Part shown: piece after piece, positions 3,673 to 41,170 of the stretch
How the letters are laid out: each line of letters opens with the position of its first letter
Numbering within the stretch: position 1 is the stretch's first letter
Assembly: GCA_902533655.1 (NCBI GenBank)
Contig: CACAMX010000005.1
Coordinates: 1 to 48,235, forward strand
Direction: 5' to 3'
Origin: an uncultured Bacteroidota bacterium
Lineage (GTDB): Bacteria; Bacteroidota; Bacteroidia; Flavobacteriales; BACL11
Length of the DNA: 48,235 bases
Program-made: the position numbers and the translations under genes
Notes under the pieces: generated by a model
The model's database searches: none
What the model was told of the DNA's origin: nothing
What the model saw: only the letters and a program-made list of their open reading frames with translations

Positions 3673-4887
3673 CTAGTTAACTACTAGTCTATGAACTGTC
3701 CTTTGATTATTTTCAATTAGATTTATAAAGTAGATACCAGCTGACAAGCTCCTGGTATTCATCTCAGAGTGATTTGAGAACCTATCTATTTGTAAACTGA
3801 CTTTTTTCCCATATAAATCAGTAATGTATAATTTTTGATTAATACTTGAATATATAATGGCATAATCTTTTGAAGGATTGGGGAATACTTTATGCTTTTT
3901 ACTTTGGTCAAAAATTAATGAGTTACTTGGCAGTGGGGTGATTTTAGATAGGCCCGTTGAAGTCCCAACCCAAACATTGTTGTTATAATCTACTTTTAAG
4001 CAAGTTACATTTGGACCAGCAACTCCATCAGAAATATCAAAATCTTGCCAAATCGATCCATTATAAAAAGCTACACCACCTTCGGCAAGATAGCCTACAT
4101 AAATTGCCACCCATATTCTGTTCCAGGAATCAATATCAATCTCTACTACTGGATTTAAAGTATCAGGAGGTGGAAGGGAATACATAATTGTATGGTTTTC
4201 AATAAAATTATTGTTGTTATCAAATACTGATAACCCACTATTTGTCCCTACCCATTTTCTATTATATTGATCAATTAGTATATCGGTAATTCCATTACTA
4301 ATCAGATTACTATTATTTGTATTAATATTTGAGAAATTATTATTCGCGCTATCTACTATTACTCCATCTAACAAACTTGCAAACCATGCATTCCCAAGAA
4401 CATCAAAATCACATGAAAGAATGAAATTACCTGGATTAATTACTGACCAACTGGCACCATCAAAGACACTAACTCCAGAGCTGAAGTTTGCATGGGAGCA
4501 CCAAACATCACCACCTTGATTAATATCTATATTTACAATTTTGTTATCTGATAGTCCTGAAAGTATATCATATGACAGCCAATTACTACCATTATAAACA
4601 CTTAACCCAAAATTTGTCCCAACATATACTTCATTATTTAAACCACATTTGATAGATAAAATATTGTTATCGATAATACCATCTGAAACATTATAATTAG
4701 TAAATGATGTCCCATCAAAATATGAAACTCCATTATTTGTACCAATCCATATATTACCACTATTATCTGTGTCGATGCATGTAATAAAATCACTAACTAA
4801 ACCATCAGTACTATAAAAATTTTCAATGTTTTGTGATTTTGTAAACAAAGAACAGCTAAGTAGTAAAAAAAACAGTAATAATCTCAC
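3673..4887 (-). CDS. Two-component-regulator-type beta-propeller protein with T9SS C-terminal sorting domain
   Basis: Repeats of the type GNIWIGTNNGVSYFDGTSFTNYNVSDG; C-term VFPNPSKDYAIIYSS...SAGIYFINLIENNQRTVHRLVVN; GTG start. Confidence 0.8.
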   Translation of the reverse strand: MRLLLFFLLLSCSLFTKSQNIENFYSTDGLVSDFITCIDTDNSGNIWIGTNNGVSYFDGTSFTNYNVSDGIIDNNILSIKCGLNNEVYVGTNFGLSVYNGSNWLSYDILSGLSDNKIVNIDINQGGDVWCSHANFSSGVSVFDGASWSVINPGNFILSCDFDVLGNAWFASLLDGVIVDSANNNFSNINTNNSNLISNGITDILIDQYNRKWVGTNSGLSVFDNNNNFIENHTIMYSLPPPDTLNPVVEIDIDSWNRIWVAIYVGYLAEGGVAFYNGSIWQDFDISDGVAGPNVTCLKVDYNNNVWVGTSTGLSKITPLPSNSLIFDQSKKHKVFPNPSKDYAIIYSSINQKLYITDLYGKKVSLQIDRFSNHSEMNTRSLSAGIYFINLIENNQRTVHRLVVN

Positions 4888-4893
4888 CTAGCG

Positions 4894-7146
4894 TTATATT
4901 TTAATCAATTTAACTATTTGATCAGTATCGCTGATGCGAATAAAATAAGTTCCTCTATTAAGTCTTTGAATTGAAATAAAATCAGAGTTTTCTCCATTCA
5001 TCACTTCTCTAAAAAACATATCGAAAATTGTAAAATTAGATTTCTGACTAAAATTCAAATACTTATTCGATGGATTAGGGAAAATTTGAATCTTTTCTTT
5101 AATTATTTCATTGTTGCTTGTCAATAAATTATTACTTCTGTTAAAGGTATGTGGTTGCAAAACAAATGAGCCAAAACCGTTTGGAGATCTTGCAAATGCT
5201 ATATCAGCAGGTTGAGGAGCAATTGTGATTGAATCAAATATTACACCACTTGAATTTGACAATGTAATTTTCTCTCCAAAGTTGAAAAGTCTAAAATTCG
5301 CATGATTAAAACCTTCTTGCTTTTGTTCATCAGCCCAAATTATATAGTAACCATACGGCTCAATTGCAATTGAAGGTAACTGCCATTTAAAAAGATTTGT
5401 TGATGTATCTGATAAAAATAAATCTTCAACATTAATATAAGAGTTAGTGGAGTTATATAACTCTATCCAATCATCTGTTTCACCTGCAGGATCTTCAACC
5501 GCACTAACATTATTTGACATCAGCTCGTTGATAACAATACTTGAAGCTGGAAGATTCACATTAACTGAGTAATACTCAAAAGCTGCTCTTGCAGGGGAAA
5601 ATTCTCCAGCAATATTATTTTCAGCATATACATAAAAATCAATCTTATTACAAGTATTTGAAATTTTTGCACCAAAAATACCATCATTTGGCAATCCATC
5701 ATTATTATTACCATCATCAAGCATATTAATACTTGTAAATTTCATATTATCACCAAACCTAAAATTTAGAAATACACTGTCAACATTAGAAACTGTTGCA
5801 TTAATAAAGATGTCATCTCCTAAATTATAATTTGTTGGACAATTAACATTAGTAATATCTGGACTTCCATTGTAGCCTGCATAATTAGATAAGTAATTTT
5901 CTCTACTGCTCATTAACTGAGTGATACCTGGACAATCTCCATTCACCAAACTTACAGAATTGTTAAGATTTGAAAGGAAATCAGAGTGTGTATAAAATTT
6001 ATTTGTATCGTTTTGGACATGAGTATCTATCAATGATCTCAGTTGATTAGCTCTATTTATGTAACTCTGATTAGTAAAGTTTTCACTAACAATAGTTCTA
6101 ATATGAGCAAGATACATTTTTCTATTTCTTTCACTAGCAAATAAATTTCTCATCAGTGGTCTAGGTGATAGTGACATATTATAATGATGAACAAATGGAT
6201 CCATATTTTGAGCTTGTGGAATTGAAAAGCCATTAAAATAAAGTGCAGATGCATCAGTCAATCTAAAACCTCCAAATGACATATTTAAATCCCAAATAAG
6301 AGGGCTAAATTGTTTTGTTAATTCTTGATACAAATAATAATTTTGTGAATAGCCAATATAGGAGTCGAAATTAACTAGAACATAATTGAATGCATGCATC
6401 CACAACGTTCTGTCAATGTTTAAGTTATCATCTAATGAGTTTGGGAAGTTATTTAGTGTATCAATTAGTCCGTATAATTGAGACCAACCATATGAAGATT
6501 CTAATCTGTAATAGTCATAATAATCAGCGCTATCACTACCATGTGAATCACTTAAATTTGAGTTTTCACCACTAATACTTATATCAAGATTGTTAGGCTC
6601 ACATTTAAAAAATGGATTGTGTCTTTCTCCAAAGCTTGCACTTACAAAATCTTTATTAATAGCCTCAACATTAGTATACAAACCCCACAATGTGTCGTTA
6701 ATAAATACATTAGCATAATTTGCTTTTGGAGCTGGCATGTACTTTCTGGCAATTTCATATGATAAAACCTCTCTCAAAAAACTGGGGTCATATATTATAT
6801 TTGCCAACTTTATTTTTTTGTAGCCGTCTAAATCTTGTTTTCCTTTAACATAATTTATTTTTATATTAAAAGGATTCTTTATAGTATTTACTGAAACAGA
6901 ACTAAACCCTTTATACCTAATTCCCACACTATCATATTGTTCTCCATCAATAATTAAATATGCTAATATTCTTTGATCATTACCAATAATATACAAACTA
7001 TCTAGAGTGGATTGCCAGTTTGGCTCATAAAAATAAATTCTTATCTCTTTTAGTGAATCAGTCTCATAAAAAGAAGATTGAGCCTTAGAAAGATTAGATA
7101 TAAAAATCAAAACGAAAGTTAAGTATATTATATTAATTTTTCTCAA
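4894..7146 (-). CDS. CotH kinase family protein with lamin-tail domain and T9SS sorting domain
   Basis: SVGIRYKGFSS, ANVFINDTLWGLYTNVEAINKDF, SPLIWDLNMSFGG; lamin-tail IVINELMSNN...DDWIELYNST; C-term IFPNPSNKYLNFS; TTG start overlapping upstream TGA stop. Confidence 0.82.
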   Translation of the reverse strand: MRKINIIYLTFVLIFISNLSKAQSSFYETDSLKEIRIYFYEPNWQSTLDSLYIIGNDQRILAYLIIDGEQYDSVGIRYKGFSSVSVNTIKNPFNIKINYVKGKQDLDGYKKIKLANIIYDPSFLREVLSYEIARKYMPAPKANYANVFINDTLWGLYTNVEAINKDFVSASFGERHNPFFKCEPNNLDISISGENSNLSDSHGSDSADYYDYYRLESSYGWSQLYGLIDTLNNFPNSLDDNLNIDRTLWMHAFNYVLVNFDSYIGYSQNYYLYQELTKQFSPLIWDLNMSFGGFRLTDASALYFNGFSIPQAQNMDPFVHHYNMSLSPRPLMRNLFASERNRKMYLAHIRTIVSENFTNQSYINRANQLRSLIDTHVQNDTNKFYTHSDFLSNLNNSVSLVNGDCPGITQLMSSRENYLSNYAGYNGSPDITNVNCPTNYNLGDDIFINATVSNVDSVFLNFRFGDNMKFTSINMLDDGNNNDGLPNDGIFGAKISNTCNKIDFYVYAENNIAGEFSPARAAFEYYSVNVNLPASSIVINELMSNNVSAVEDPAGETDDWIELYNSTNSYINVEDLFLSDTSTNLFKWQLPSIAIEPYGYYIIWADEQKQEGFNHANFRLFNFGEKITLSNSSGVIFDSITIAPQPADIAFARSPNGFGSFVLQPHTFNRSNNLLTSNNEIIKEKIQIFPNPSNKYLNFSQKSNFTIFDMFFREVMNGENSDFISIQRLNRGTYFIRISDTDQIVKLIKI

Positions 7147-8708
7147 ATTACTATCTTTTGTATGAATTGTCGGTTCCTAAGTTTATATTTGATATAGTAT
7201 AATCCTTTTCTTATAAATTTTGTGCTAATGTTAGATTTTAAATCTTTACTTTTATAAACTACTCTTCCATCTGATGAGAAAATCATAATTTCTTCAGCTA
7301 TTTCATTTATATTGTCATATTTTATTAAACTGTTGTGATGATAAAAAAGTATCGGATTATTTAGTTCCTCAATACTAGAAGCATTAAAACATGATGTACT
7401 ACTTGTGTTCATATAGTCTTTTAGAACTTGTATTCCTGGGTGATCACACTCATATCTGAAAGCTTTTTGAGATTGAGCATTGTATGGTCCCCAAATAATA
7501 TTGTTTAATGAGTCAACTTCATACATTACACCAGCACCACCTTGTCCTCCAGATGCATTAACAAAAATGTTACCATTGGACATTCTATCAGATGCTGATT
7601 GACCAGGTGCTGAATATTGACAAAAATATCTGAATGTGTAGCTACTTGGACCATAGGGTTGGCCAGAACTTCTAAAATAAGTATATCCATTTACTGGGGT
7701 CAGAATAGCATCAACAGTTGACTGATTATTACCTCCTCCAGAGTTATTAAAAATTTGTAAGTGCCCACCTAATGGTCTTCCATCGTCTTTGACCCATCTT
7801 ACATCGTGTACTGCATTAGGTATTAATCTTTGGCCTGTCATACCATAGTTAGCAGGATTTCCCCATCTGTAAAGGATATCTCCACCCATTCCAGAGTTAC
7901 CACCTGTTTGACTTGCAGCTTCTGCAGTTGTGGTACTGTGATCTATTATATATATCTCGCTTGAGAATCTCGAAGAAAAGGCTATTTGATCCAAATCAGG
8001 ATTATAATCTACTCCGTTAACATGAAACCAATCACCTCCACCTCCTCCAGGTCCTCCTCCACTATTTTGTATCATATTAATATCAATTAGCTCAGGGTGA
8101 TCTGAAATATCATTTACATAATTTGGCTTATTTGGATCTACATCTTGACATAAATGATCCCAAATATGCCACTCCCAAACAATTTGGGCTGTGCCTGTAT
8201 TTGGATTTCCCTCAATTTCAACAAAATGAGTTGGCCACTTTCCAAAGTTAGAAACATTTCCTGTAAAGCCTGCATTAATAAGTTCAGCTTGTGACTTAAC
8301 TTCCCAGGCAGTTAATAAAACATTATCTCCTATTAGGCATATATCATGGTGCGATAAAACACTCGAGCTTGAATAAATAAAATCCCAAACAACATTTCCA
8401 TTTGGATCAATTTCTTGTACTCTTCCTGCATCTGCAGCACCTCCTAAAGAATTATTTGTTCCTCCTGTCTGGATATTATTTTTTGTTCCTCTAACAATAT
8501 TTCCATTGTCTTTAAGAAGAACTGTGTAATTGCATTCTGTACTTAAATTCCAAGTATGAGCTATATTTTCATTCTCATCAATTAAATATGTTGTAGTGTT
8601 GCCTTGTCTGTTATATAGAGCAAAGCCGCTGAACTGAGCAAAAACTTCGTTGGTAAAAAAGATTAAGAGAACAATTATTTTTTTAATCCTCTTTGTTTTT
8701 AAATTCAT
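7143..8708 (-). CDS. Arylsulfotransferase (ASST)-family secreted protein
   Basis: NIAHTWNLS, GNVVWDF, SHHDICLIGDNVLLTAWE, IVWEWHIWDH, DWFHVNGVDYNPDLDQIAFSSR, ILYRWGNPANYG; ATG at 8708 gives a signal peptide (ORF track begins at a TTG at 8732). Confidence 0.75.
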   Translation of the reverse strand: MNLKTKRIKKIIVLLIFFTNEVFAQFSGFALYNRQGNTTTYLIDENENIAHTWNLSTECNYTVLLKDNGNIVRGTKNNIQTGGTNNSLGGAADAGRVQEIDPNGNVVWDFIYSSSSVLSHHDICLIGDNVLLTAWEVKSQAELINAGFTGNVSNFGKWPTHFVEIEGNPNTGTAQIVWEWHIWDHLCQDVDPNKPNYVNDISDHPELIDINMIQNSGGGPGGGGGDWFHVNGVDYNPDLDQIAFSSRFSSEIYIIDHSTTTAEAASQTGGNSGMGGDILYRWGNPANYGMTGQRLIPNAVHDVRWVKDDGRPLGGHLQIFNNSGGGNNQSTVDAILTPVNGYTYFRSSGQPYGPSSYTFRYFCQYSAPGQSASDRMSNGNIFVNASGGQGGAGVMYEVDSLNNIIWGPYNAQSQKAFRYECDHPGIQVLKDYMNTSSTSCFNASSIEELNNPILFYHHNSLIKYDNINEIAEEIMIFSSDGRVVYKSKDLKSNISTKFIRKGLYYIKYKLRNRQFIQKIVI

Positions 8709-8748
8709 TAAATAAATCTTTGATAAAATCAAAGATAGTTAATAAATT

Positions 8749-9174
8749 TTAGTAGGTCATCGGAACCCAACAGCCATCAACCCACAAAAAACCAGTTGGC
8801 ATGCTTTTCCAAAATCCTTTTTGCCATTTGTAACCTATCTTTTTTTTCTTCCATTTTCCTGAAATCCAAACATATTGCTGATAGAAAGGACTCCATTTCC
8901 AATGACCACCTACCCAAACATATCCTCTCTTTTTGTATTTTGGATTATTAATTTTTGCTTTTTTTCTGATAGGTTTTTTAATAACAACTCTATTTTTCTT
9001 TTTTCTTTTTTTCTTCTTGTGGTAAATATTTCCATTTTTATCAATGTATTTATTTTTCTCAGATTTAGTTATAATTTTCTCTGATTTATTTTTTTTTAAG
9101 TTAACTACTGTTTGAGAATATACATCATTGAAGAAGAAAAAGAATAATATTGCTATTGTTGTTAATTTGTTCAT
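8749..9174 (-). CDS. Secreted Lys-rich WxxGxW-repeat protein
   Basis: Signal peptide; Lys/Arg-rich middle; four repeats WVGGHW, WISGKW, WQKGFW, WVDGCW. Confidence 0.7.
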   Translation of the reverse strand: MNKLTTIAILFFFFFNDVYSQTVVNLKKNKSEKIITKSEKNKYIDKNGNIYHKKKKRKKKNRVVIKKPIRKKAKINNPKYKKRGYVWVGGHWKWSPFYQQYVWISGKWKKKKIGYKWQKGFWKSMPTGFLWVDGCWVPMTY

Positions 9175-9208
9175 GCTAAAAAGTTTAGATTTTATATTTT
9201 TATAACTT

Positions 9209-9216
9209 TAAATTTG
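9209..9216 (+). promoter_or_regulatory. TAAATTTG -7 element for the DUF502 gene
   Basis: TAnnTTTG consensus 12 nt before ATG at 9229; contains the TTG that the ORF track uses as start (9214), so that start is unlikely. Confidence 0.5.
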
Positions 9217-9228
9217 ATTATTTATTGT

Positions 9229-9798
9229 ATGATAAAAAAATTAATTTATTACTTTTTACAAGGTTTATTATATATAGTACCTATTGCAGTAACATCTTAT
9301 GTAGCGATTTGGGTCATCAGAAGTTTAGAAAATATTTTTGATTTCAAAGTGCCTGGTCTAGGCCTTATTGTTGTAATATTTTCAATCATCATTATTGGCT
9401 TCATTGGATCTATTGTTATAAAAAGTCCTATTAATGCTTTCTTTAAAAGAATTCTAAAGAAAGCTCCATTGCTTGAAACTATATACTCCTCTGTTAAGGA
9501 TTTAATGGGGGCATTTATTGGTAAAAAGAAAGGTTTTAAACAAGCAGTTTTTGTTAAAATTTTTGATAATTCAACAATTGAGAGAATTGGATTTATTACT
9601 AACGAGGATTTAGAAAAATTAAAAATAAATGAAGGAAGGGTCTTGGTATATATTCCTCACTCTTATAACTTTTCTGGAAATCTTTATGTAGTAGAAAAGA
9701 AATATATAACTCCAATAGATGCTTCATCAAGTGAAGTTATGAAGTTAATTGTTTCTGGTGGGGTTGCTGAATTTAATGAATCGGGAAAAAAAGAATAA
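9229..9798 (+). CDS. DUF502 family membrane protein
   Basis: GLLYIVPIAVTSYVAIW, IGFIGSIVIKSP, APLLETIYSSVKDLM; ATG at 9229 preferred. Confidence 0.82.
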   Translation: MIKKLIYYFLQGLLYIVPIAVTSYVAIWVIRSLENIFDFKVPGLGLIVVIFSIIIIGFIGSIVIKSPINAFFKRILKKAPLLETIYSSVKDLMGAFIGKKKGFKQAVFVKIFDNSTIERIGFITNEDLEKLKINEGRVLVYIPHSYNFSGNLYVVEKKYITPIDASSSEVMKLIVSGGVAEFNESGKKE

Positions 9799-38130: not shown

Positions 38131-38874
38131 TTATTTTTTATTTATTGCTTTAAAAAAATTATCTCTCATTGTGATACTAATACCATTGTTTCCGCCTAAT
38201 CTTTCTGGGTGAAACTGAACAGCAATCATAAATGGATGCAAGTTACTATCTAATACAATCGCTTCTGGCAACATGTCATTTGAACGAGCTAAAACAATGA
38301 CTCCCTTTGCTAAATCATTCAACCCTTGATGATGCCATGAGTTAACATTAAAAGATGATGTAGTGTCATTTTTTGGAAAGATTAAAGAATTATAGGTGTT
38401 CTGAGGATCTACCAAGTAAATGGAATGATTCACTTCTCCATTATTTCGATGAGTGACAGCATTACCTATTTGAGTGGGAATATCTGCGTATAATGATCCT
38501 CCAGCAGCAACATTAATCATTTGCATTCCTCTACAAATGCCTATAGTTGGAATTGAATTATTAAAGGCGTAGTCAAATATTAATTTTTCTAAAGTATCTC
38601 TGTAATGATTAATCGTTTCACACAAATCAAGATTAGTTGCATTATCATACAAAAGTGGGTTAATGTCTTCACCTCCTGTTAAAACAATACCATCAGTGAT
38701 ACTCAACAAAGAGTCTAAATTATTTGATTGATAAGCATTAAGGATATTATAGTTTTCATCTTCTAACCACTTTTCATAATTAAAGGATGCTTTAGATAAT
38801 AGTATGTTTTTCTTCTTATTTGGAGTACAAGAAAGAAGTATAATGATAAAAAATAAGTAGGATATTTTATTCAT
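38131..38874 (-). CDS. Lipoprotein-anchored C26-family (gamma-glutamyl hydrolase / class I amidotransferase-like) peptidase
   Basis: Signal/lipobox IILLSCTP; GIVLTGGEDINPLLY, TIGICRGMQMINVAAGGSLYAD, AVQFHPER. Confidence 0.85.
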   Translation of the reverse strand: MNKISYLFFIIILLSCTPNKKKNILLSKASFNYEKWLEDENYNILNAYQSNNLDSLLSITDGIVLTGGEDINPLLYDNATNLDLCETINHYRDTLEKLIFDYAFNNSIPTIGICRGMQMINVAAGGSLYADIPTQIGNAVTHRNNGEVNHSIYLVDPQNTYNSLIFPKNDTTSSFNVNSWHHQGLNDLAKGVIVLARSNDMLPEAIVLDSNLHPFMIAVQFHPERLGGNNGISITMRDNFFKAINKK

Positions 38875-39020
38875 GCTCGTTCAACAAGTAAAAATATAAA
38901 ATGAAAATCAAAAAAATATTTATTTATGCAACACAATTTTTATTTATTCATAATCTGTAAATAAAAATGAAAAATTTAATATCACTTTATGGCTTTAAAT
39001 TTTTAATTATTTTTATAGAG

Positions 39021-39380
39021 TTTTTTACATTTTTCATGCATTTTCATGCATTTTTTTGCATTTTCTTGCAATTTTTACACTTTATAAACATTTTATAATA
39101 TTTTATAATATTTTTTATAAAAGGAATAATTAAAAAAATCTAGTTTAAAATTATTTAAATAGGTTTTTTTAAGCTATTTTATTCAATTATTGGTACTTTT
39201 TTGTACTTTTTTGTACTTTTTTAACAATTTAGCTTAATTATATTAGTATAATAATGATTAATTTATAAATTATAAAGTATTTGATTCTTTTTTACATTTT
39301 TTTACACTATTTTACGTTTTTTTTACGTTTATTTAGTCTTAATTACAATTTTTTGTTCTTTTTTCCCCTTTTTTGACGTG
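39021..39380. repeat. Five short arrays of T-tracts phased at ~10 bp (different unit sequences)
   Basis: GCATTTT units 39021-39080; TTTTATAATA units 39091-39116; GTACTTTTTT x3 39193-39222; TTTAC at 39291, 39301, 39311, 39322; TTTT tracts at 39351, 39361, 39371. Confidence 0.8.
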
Positions 39381-39450
39381 TAATGTTATTTTTTAAATTT
39401 TAGAATTTTAAAAATATTATGCAGCACATAACATTTACTAATTGGGTTGA

Positions 39451-39458
39451 TAAATTTG
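39451..39458 (+). promoter_or_regulatory. TAAATTTG -7 element for the small membrane protein gene
   Basis: TAnnTTTG match only 4 nt before ATG 39463. Confidence 0.45.
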
Positions 39459-39462
39459 TAAA

Positions 39463-39816
39463 ATGAAAAAATTAATTATTTCCTTATTAGTATTGATAGC
39501 TAATTTATCATATGCGTCATTTCCAATTAATAGTCTGTCAATGGATACAACTATTAATAAAAAGAGTGAAACATTAGAACAGTATCAGAAAAGATTAATA
39601 AAACAGGGTTTTTATAACTCTGAAAATGATATATTAAATACACTTACAAAAAAGAATAAGAAATCTAAAAAGTCAAGATTTTTACCTAGTTGGAAATTAT
39701 GGCAAAAAGCATTATTAATTATTCTATGTATACCAATAATTATTATTATTTATTACATTATTTTTCCTCCATCAATATCTTTTTCCTTAGACGCTAATGA
39801 TTTCAATAGACACTAA
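39463..39816 (+). CDS. Small protein of unknown function with signal peptide and one C-terminal TM segment
   Basis: MKKLIISLLVLIANLSYASF signal; basic KKNKKSKKS; WQKALLIILCIPIIIIIYYIIFPP helix; no family recognised. Confidence 0.6.
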   Translation: MKKLIISLLVLIANLSYASFPINSLSMDTTINKKSETLEQYQKRLIKQGFYNSENDILNTLTKKNKKSKKSRFLPSWKLWQKALLIILCIPIIIIIYYIIFPPSISFSLDANDFNRH

Positions 39817-39841
39817 TGATTTTTTAAACTTTTGAAATTTC

Positions 39842-41170
39842 TCAGATTTCCTTTAAGATCATATCTATAACAAAATCATCATCCCATTTTTTCTCTATTT
39901 GAGGTAGTTTCATGATTTTTGCCATTATTTGCTCTTGTTTTTTACCAACTTCCCAAGCTGTTGAATACTTGATATTTGAAAAGCTAACCATACTATACAG
40001 GGGTAACCATTTTTCTGGGTGCAATTTTGAGACTTTTTGTTCAATTTTCTTTTGTAATAAAAAACTAGGATCCGCTGTTTTATCTCTCATGACTATAAAA
40101 TTGTGCAACGATAAATCTTGCACCCCATCACCCTCTGGCTTTCTATCAATTGAAAATTGATCAAAGCATTTTTCATAATTTTCTTTGTAGATGTCTAGCA
40201 TATCTGATAGTATTCTGCAATCTTCAAAGCCAGCATTCATACCCTGACCATAAAATGGCACGGTAGCATGAGCTGAATCACCAATAAGTAAAACATTTTT
40301 TTTGCTCCAGGGGAAGGTTTTAACTATTCCAAGCTCAGAAGTAGGATTGGCCTGCCATTGCTCATAAAGATTGGGAACTAGTTTAGCAAAGTCCGGAAAA
40401 TGCTTGTTGAAATAGTGAATTGTTTCTTTCTTAGTATTTAAATTTTCAAATGAATCTTTTCCGTGTTTGGCAGCAAATAATGTGCAGGTGAAGCTTCCAT
40501 CTAAATTAGCAAGAGCTATAACCATAAAATTTCCTCTTGGCCATATATGTAGAGCTTCTTTTTCAATTAAGTAAGAATTGTTTGGTCCTGAGGGTATCAG
40601 AAGTTCTTTATAGTTGTACTCTATTTTGTTGTAATTATACATGTGCCCTAGTTTTTCAACCATTTTAGCTCTTACATTTGAAAAAGTACCATCTGCACCA
40701 ACAATAAAATCAGCTCCATATATTTTTGCTTGATCTACCTGCAAAAATGTAGCTTTTGTATTATTAAAATCTACATCTACACATTTTGAATTGAAATGTA
40801 TTTCAGCTCCATACTTTTCTGCAAGATTTAGCATTAACAAATTAAGCTCTACTCTTGAAACAGAAAAAATTGCCTGATCAGATTCTCCATATTGTTGAAA
40901 TGTTAAATTTCCTTTACTATCATGCATAACTCTTCTATACATTGGTATGGCAATTTTTTTAACATACTCATGAATATCAGCTTGTTCCAGAGATGTCCAA
41001 CCTCTTTTAGATAAAGCAAGATTGATGGATTTTCCAGCAGTAATCTTTTGAGTTCTTAAGTCTTTTCTTCTCTCAAAAAGTTGAACTGAATATCCTTTTT
41101 TAATAAGATGAATAGCACACAATGAACCAACTAGGCCAGCACCAATTACTATTACTTTTTTTTCTTTCAT
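39842..41170 (-). CDS. kmo: Kynurenine 3-monooxygenase
   Basis: VIVIGAGLVGSLCAIHLIKKGY, GKSINLALSKRGW, GADGTFSNVR, LIGDSAHATVPFYGQGMNAGFEDC. Confidence 0.95.
   Translation of the reverse strand: MKEKKVIVIGAGLVGSLCAIHLIKKGYSVQLFERRKDLRTQKITAGKSINLALSKRGWTSLEQADIHEYVKKIAIPMYRRVMHDSKGNLTFQQYGESDQAIFSVSRVELNLLMLNLAEKYGAEIHFNSKCVDVDFNNTKATFLQVDQAKIYGADFIVGADGTFSNVRAKMVEKLGHMYNYNKIEYNYKELLIPSGPNNSYLIEKEALHIWPRGNFMVIALANLDGSFTCTLFAAKHGKDSFENLNTKKETIHYFNKHFPDFAKLVPNLYEQWQANPTSELGIVKTFPWSKKNVLLIGDSAHATVPFYGQGMNAGFEDCRILSDMLDIYKENYEKCFDQFSIDRKPEGDGVQDLSLHNFIVMRDKTADPSFLLQKKIEQKVSKLHPEKWLPLYSMVSFSNIKYSTAWEVGKKQEQIMAKIMKLPQIEKKWDDDFVIDMILKEI

Follow-up and report, generated by a model that had tools for sequence, protein, structure and literature searches.

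Helically phased T-tracts with replaceable repeat units beyond a kynurenine 3-monooxygenase-like gene in a family of Flavobacteriales: a possible curvature element

The DNA analysed here, referred to below as the window, is a stretch of 48,235 nucleotides from a contig (CACAMX010000005.1) of an uncultured Bacteroidota bacterium. Its largest non-coding gap separates a peptidase C26 gene from a small orphan membrane protein gene, which is followed by a gene for a kynurenine 3-monooxygenase (KMO)-like enzyme (Table 1), so that the T-tract array in the gap sits beyond the KMO 3' end. A first-pass annotation, made from the sequence alone, had called this the largest gap of the window; this is borne out, since the seemingly larger interval 4186-4893 forms the 5' portion of a gene with a GTG start. 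The same annotation described five series of T-tracts, all of which were found where they had been placed when the sequence was read and runs of four or more were listed. By direct reading, the T-runs of array a at 39021, 39030, 39041, 39051, 39061, and 39072 are preceded by earlier members at 39000 and 39010, and the array contains an exact match to TTTT repeated five times at 10-bp steps (39001-39064). Tandem Repeats Finder (TRF) reported 3.0 copies of GTACTTTTTT at 100% for array c, and TTTTCATGCA is present in 4.4 tandem copies within the gap. Tandem copies of one unit therefore make up part of the gap, but the gap as a whole is not a single array.

Table 1. Features of the gap and its flanks in the window, and array units found after KMO, by genome
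Feature	Coordinates	Strand	Remarks
Peptidase C26 / GATase-like lipoprotein gene	38131..38874	-	left neighbour of gap; syntenic in congeners
Non-coding gap	38875..39462	.	588 bp, 16.5% G+C, T-tracts with a 10.3-bp period; lies between the divergent C26 and orphan genes
Array a	39000..39076	+	eight T-tracts about every 10 bp; unit TTTTCATGCA/TTTTTTTGCA
Array b	39091..39116	+	TTTTATAATA units; T-runs at 39091, 39101, 39111
Array c	39193..39222	+	GTACTTTTTT x3
Array d	39288..39335	+	TTTTTTACAT-like units; TTTAC at 39291, 39301, 39311, 39322
Array e and weaker T-tract tail	39349..39412	+	T6 runs at 39349, 39359, 39369
TATGCNNNGCATA-like box and spacer to orphan start codon	39415/39417..39462	+	box conserved but degenerate here; 15-codon frame overlaps
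Orphan small membrane protein gene, 'ASFP' family	39463..39816	+	right neighbour of gap
KMO-like FAD enzyme gene	39842..41170	-	last gene of kynurenine-pathway run
Array unit after KMO, G006			TTTTACGCAC x8
Array unit after KMO, G007			TTTTTTATGC and TTTTAGCACA
Array unit after KMO, G014			TTTTTACACA
Array unit after KMO, G016			TTTTTTTAGC
Array unit after KMO, G044			AAAAAGACAC x13
Array unit after KMO, G049			AAAACTGCAT
Array unit after KMO, G051			AAAAGTGTAT
Array unit after KMO, G052			TTTTTTGCAC

Several features near the orphan gene were considered apart from the array. Several orphan-related genes (loci L028, L029, L036, and L041) are preceded by a palindromic box, TATGCNNNGCATA, which is located ~45 nt before their starts (63 nt in L036) and is a possible operator or promoter of the orphan's gene family. 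A leader peptide was considered for the 15-codon frame that ends in ATGA before the orphan and is kept in four congeners, and was set aside because the box explains the conserved start equally well. In one congener (G004:C1:30344-30694, L024) the orphan carries an in-frame TAA at codon 17 while the remainder is ~95% identical, which reflects either a recent loss or an assembly error. A tie of the array to the orphan gene was likewise rejected, as orphan paralogs lack an array among those whose upstream DNA was read. Finally, an intrinsic terminator or a structured RNA fits the gap poorly, given that no terminator-like site was found in 38500-40000, that Rfam gave no match in the window, and that the T-tract strand is not conserved.

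Fourier analysis of the T-tracts in the gap gave a sharp peak at 10.3 bp. None of 1000 dinucleotide shuffles reached the observed power in the 9.5-11 bp band, and 1-5 per 1000 reached it at any period from 5 to 20, so that the excess over shuffled controls on which the periodicity claim depended is present and the A/T tracts follow the helical repeat beyond chance. The genome-wide search proposed at the same time places this locus first for A/T-tract phasing within 660 kb of its own genome: in a scan with 300-bp windows it scores 8.51 and the runner-up 4.06, and the gap ranks first by phasing among the 157 own-genome gaps of at least 90 bp. Second to it in phasing within the genome (power 4.82, peak 10.5) comes the gap immediately upstream of dnaA (G000:C7:21721-21943; L018:1721-1943).

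Curvature was predicted in two ways, from simple A-tract vectors and from a wedge model, with approximate parameter values. Under both models the gap is predicted to be the most curved place of the window, with an end-to-end ratio of 0.40 as compared to at least 0.70 outside the gap, and the predicted net bend exceeds the shuffled and genomic background; array d falls within the stretch predicted to be most curved. The counterpart gaps of genomes G001 and G014 likewise have the lowest predicted end-to-end ratios of their contigs (0.48 and 0.17). The suggestion that these phased tracts curve the DNA is thus supported at the level of prediction.

The gene order iPGM, C26, gap, orphan, KMO is kept in three other genomes of the genus, with gaps of 557-588 bp, and the global spectral peak lies at 9.9-10.3 bp in all four genomes. 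When the four gaps are aligned, the T-runs line up while the 3-base spacers vary (TGCA, TGTG, and TGTC); between species, T-runs of at least four match at ~0.87, T in shorter runs at ~0.73, and G/C, which marks the spacers, at ~0.43. The larger indels measure 10, 10, 10, and 13 bp, the others being 1-2 bp, and array c has one 10-bp unit more in the genome of the window than in the three congeners, so that copy number varies among relatives as it does in minisatellites. The conservation of T-runs may come in part from AT-biased mutation. The congeners lend support to constraint while falling short of proof, because inheritance alone could keep part of the signal at such divergence.

Outside the genus, KMO and C26 are often neighbours and C26 is near the array in most genera; the orphan was not seen at that place, and among the genomes examined it lies between array and KMO in this genus only. 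With a tract mask neutral to strand, the KMO-C26 gap peaks at 9.6-10.8 bp in 27 of 33 family genomes, whereas 34 of 331 background gaps from three genomes do so, with background gaps called from open reading frames instead of curated genes and the relatives being draft genomes. The binomial probability of this difference is 1e-21 if relatedness is ignored. Counted by genus, the peak is present in most members of 10 of 12 genera and in at least one member of all 12. The gap ranks 1 of 157, 1 of 63, and 1 of 111 in the three genomes surveyed, and in G014, which belongs to another genus and has a different unit, it scores 10.47, the runner-up in a 591-kb contig reaching 4.18. The repeat unit itself varies by lineage, including TTTTCATGCA, TTTTTACACA, AAAAAGACAC, and TTTTACGCAC (Table 1), the strand that carries T flips between genomes, and in some KMO gaps A4 and T6 alternate every 10 bp. 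Thus, in most related genera the same gap is phased with its letters replaced, which suggests that the bend rather than the sequence is kept. The earlier proposal that spacing, not sequence, is maintained is thereby strongly supported, both by the congeners, in which it was to be looked for, and by the other genera. The array is nevertheless dispensable at the KMO site, because 6 of the 33 gaps have no such peak and, in genera g2 and g6, KMO is not followed by a gap. In the genomes read from other families of the order, the array is absent after KMO; as arrays within the family also occur at other loci, KMO was rejected as a strict partner. Contigs often end at or just past the KMO 3' end, in or beside the array (G006:C13, G007:C2 and C6, G042:C13, G046:C28, and G055:C52). 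The arrays probably break short-read assemblies, and they may be longer in nature.

A narrow probe, three copies of TTTNNYGC, detected one unit class only and gave way to a probe independent of the unit, five TTTT tracts spaced exactly 10 bp apart, with the same motif at 13-bp steps as a control. Of the 53 family genomes, 26 contained matches to the 10-bp probe, most of them densely clustered, whereas the 13-bp probe gave nine isolated matches in eight genomes; outside the family, 10-bp matches are rarer, and many are isolated or homopolymeric. Unit length is therefore not free as it would be in an ordinary minisatellite: the comparison of the two probes, and of spacings from 8 to 16 tested locally, shows that helical spacing is favoured. 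The 10-bp clusters are confined to a few recurrent loci, the KMO-C26 gap in ~16 genomes, the gap between DUF502-like and arylsulfotransferase-like genes in six (genera g8 and g2), trxB-tgt in two, and uvrD-ribF in two, together with three single sites and two coding matches; the gene names at these side loci were read from the sequences and not from profile searches. The arrangement of genes around the arrays is tandem, divergent, or convergent, so that no single regulatory role fits.

Two of these side loci deserve separate description. In the window, the arylsulfotransferase-like/DUF502-like locus (7143-9798) has no array, its gap being filled by an extra gene of 141 amino acids. This locus is ~30 kb from the KMO locus in the window, and in G051 and G019 the two lie on the same contig, ~53-56 kb apart. 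Between convergent uvrD-like and ribF-like genes (L251 and L252, on G018:C43 and G054:C10), phased T arrays occur on both strands, and their units differ between the two congeners G018 and G054 (TTTTTTACTA vs TTTTTTACAA).

When the gap of the window was evolved neutrally in simulation at its own base composition, the peak was mostly lost by 0.5 substitutions per site, where it remained in the band in 14-17% of runs, and from 1.0 onwards it was near background. Because neutral decay erases the peak and KMO itself is only ~60% identical, the phase shared between genera must be either selected or repeatedly regenerated. The idea that the gap is a decay product is contradicted by this simulation, unless slippage keeps regenerating the array.

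Regeneration of this kind is the core of the main rival to a curvature element, which holds that these are functionless 10-bp minisatellites: T-rich gaps would repeatedly gain slippage repeats, mutation would favour a 10-bp unit, for example through misalignment by one helical turn, and KMO-C26 would be a long unconstrained gap. Slippage regeneration is real, as near-perfect units, copy differences, and contig ends within the array attest, and with near-perfect tandem units in several genomes it is certainly active and could alone create a 10-bp periodicity. Clear tandem units homogenised within species, the extra copy of GTACTTTTTT in the genome of the window, the breaking of several assemblies at the array, as expected of unstable repeats, and the arrays at a few other gaps all agree with it. 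However, slippage on its own leaves unexplained why arrays recur at a small set of orthologous gaps instead of at random AT-rich ones, and why the enrichment is for helical spacing only. Moreover, the phase runs on across neighbouring units that are not copies of each other or across strand changes, the series a-e of the window included, and the T-runs are more conserved than the spacers. We therefore consider slippage without function a serious but somewhat unlikely account of the array.

A promoter role, in which phased A-tracts upstream of C26, or of the orphan in this genus, aid RNA polymerase or a regulator, suits many array sites, though not every one. Where genes are tandem or divergent the array mostly precedes a gene start, it fills the ~120 bp before C26 in several g9, g10, and g12 genomes, and curvature at bacterial promoters is well documented (work cited in PMC4060949 and PMC4132750). 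Against this, the uvrD-ribF array lies between convergent genes, g8 genomes have other genes between array and C26, and the downstream gene changes while the array stays; as a general explanation it seems unlikely. The narrower suggestion that the array mainly serves as promoter of the orphan gene is not supported, as the array is present in genera without the orphan there and elsewhere between convergent genes. Helically spaced direct repeats, often at one major locus per genome, would also suit an array bound by a single sequence-specific protein, for instance a centromere-like site whose direct repeats are 10-11 bp long, but units that differ from genus to genus and, within one gap, even from sub-array to sub-array, two loci in some genomes, and the lack of any dedicated DNA-binding gene beside the array in the flanks examined make this very improbable. 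Least credible is an element of the replication origin or terminus with an AT-rich unwinding region, which had been among the roles first proposed. The locus is AT-rich, predicted to be bent, and often the one main site of its genome, and the G001 array is ~40 kb from the gidA region and the cumulative GC-skew minimum; however, the GC-skew check found no extremum at the locus in G001 or G014, dnaA is on other contigs in the four congeners tested, the canonical DnaA box TTATCCACA is absent from 334 kb of G001, and some genomes have no array while others have two. The combination of a skew extremum with DnaA boxes that marks an origin is thus missing at the site. In G001, gidA/mnmG (contig C1, ~250-255 kb) is close to the contig's cumulative GC-skew minimum, with dnaA on another contig, and this region is likely the origin region.

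The reading we prefer, with a probability of about one half, is that the gap holds a curvature element in which helical phase is what is retained and slippage renews the sequence. T/A tracts placed once per helical turn would let small bends sum to a strong static bend; individual units would be replaced over time through point mutation and slippage of 10 bp; and if mainly phase-keeping changes persist, the bend at the KMO-C26 boundary would survive while its sequence is lost. We infer that selection maintains the phase, and the curvature element is probably a wrapping or topological site. The bend may serve an architectural protein at a transcription-unit boundary, either as a site for wrapping or as a plectoneme tip, with gyrase and HU-type proteins as the obvious candidates. 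Gyrase is plausible in that role because the motif it binds in E. coli, 130 bp long with a G+C phasing of 10.75 bp, reflects a preference for DNA with phased G+C variation, and because gyrase sites are enriched downstream of operons (PMC6379681). Strong gyrase sites (Mu SGS, pSC101, and the 130-bp motif) share with the array a helically phased G+C variation suited to wrapping, and the array correspondingly lies beyond KMO. A strong gyrase site would carry its phased G+C variation in arms of ~47 bp; the gap shows phasing, but with a period of ~10.3 here vs 10.75 in the motif, and it is a candidate gyrase site by analogy.

Phased A-tract clusters and intergenic curvature are well known in bacteria (PMC3940949, PMC4132750, PMC4060949). 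The gap shares with the clusters described by Tolstorukov et al. 2005 and by Mrazek and co-workers (PMC3940949, PMC3431218) helically phased A/T runs, predicted intrinsic curvature, and a cluster length of ~100 bp or more. Those clusters, however, are scattered over coding and non-coding DNA, whereas in the present case a genome has, in essence, a single extreme cluster, located at a fixed orthologous gap and made of tandem units that are replaced with the phase intact. The curvature described at bacterial promoters and terminators (Kozobay-Avraham et al. 2006; Jauregui et al. 2003) is also intergenic and partly conserved between relatives; unlike it, the array has no fixed position with respect to gene starts or ends and occurs in tandem, divergent, and convergent contexts. 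With bacterial minisatellites (VNTRs) the array has in common short tandem units, copy-number change, and assembly breaks, but its unit length is fixed at the helical repeat and its unit sequence is replaced between genera at the same locus. A literature search, most subscription journals being outside its scope, returned no paper on a single locus that keeps phase while replacing sequence.

A stronger form of the preferred reading, which we put forward tentatively, is that selection on helical phase alone keeps one main chromosomal site of each genome strongly bent in at least 10 genera, with its sequence freely replaced, and that this site would constitute a dedicated curvature landmark, either a topological boundary or a loop-tip anchor, invisible to ordinary alignment. 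For decades, arguments about what phased A-tracts do in bacteria have rested on genome-wide statistics. One defined locus, whose phase persists past sequence saturation and whose variants are found in a dozen genera, makes selection on DNA shape testable at a single place, and the use of spectral phase instead of sequence offers a way to find conserved elements that alignment misses.
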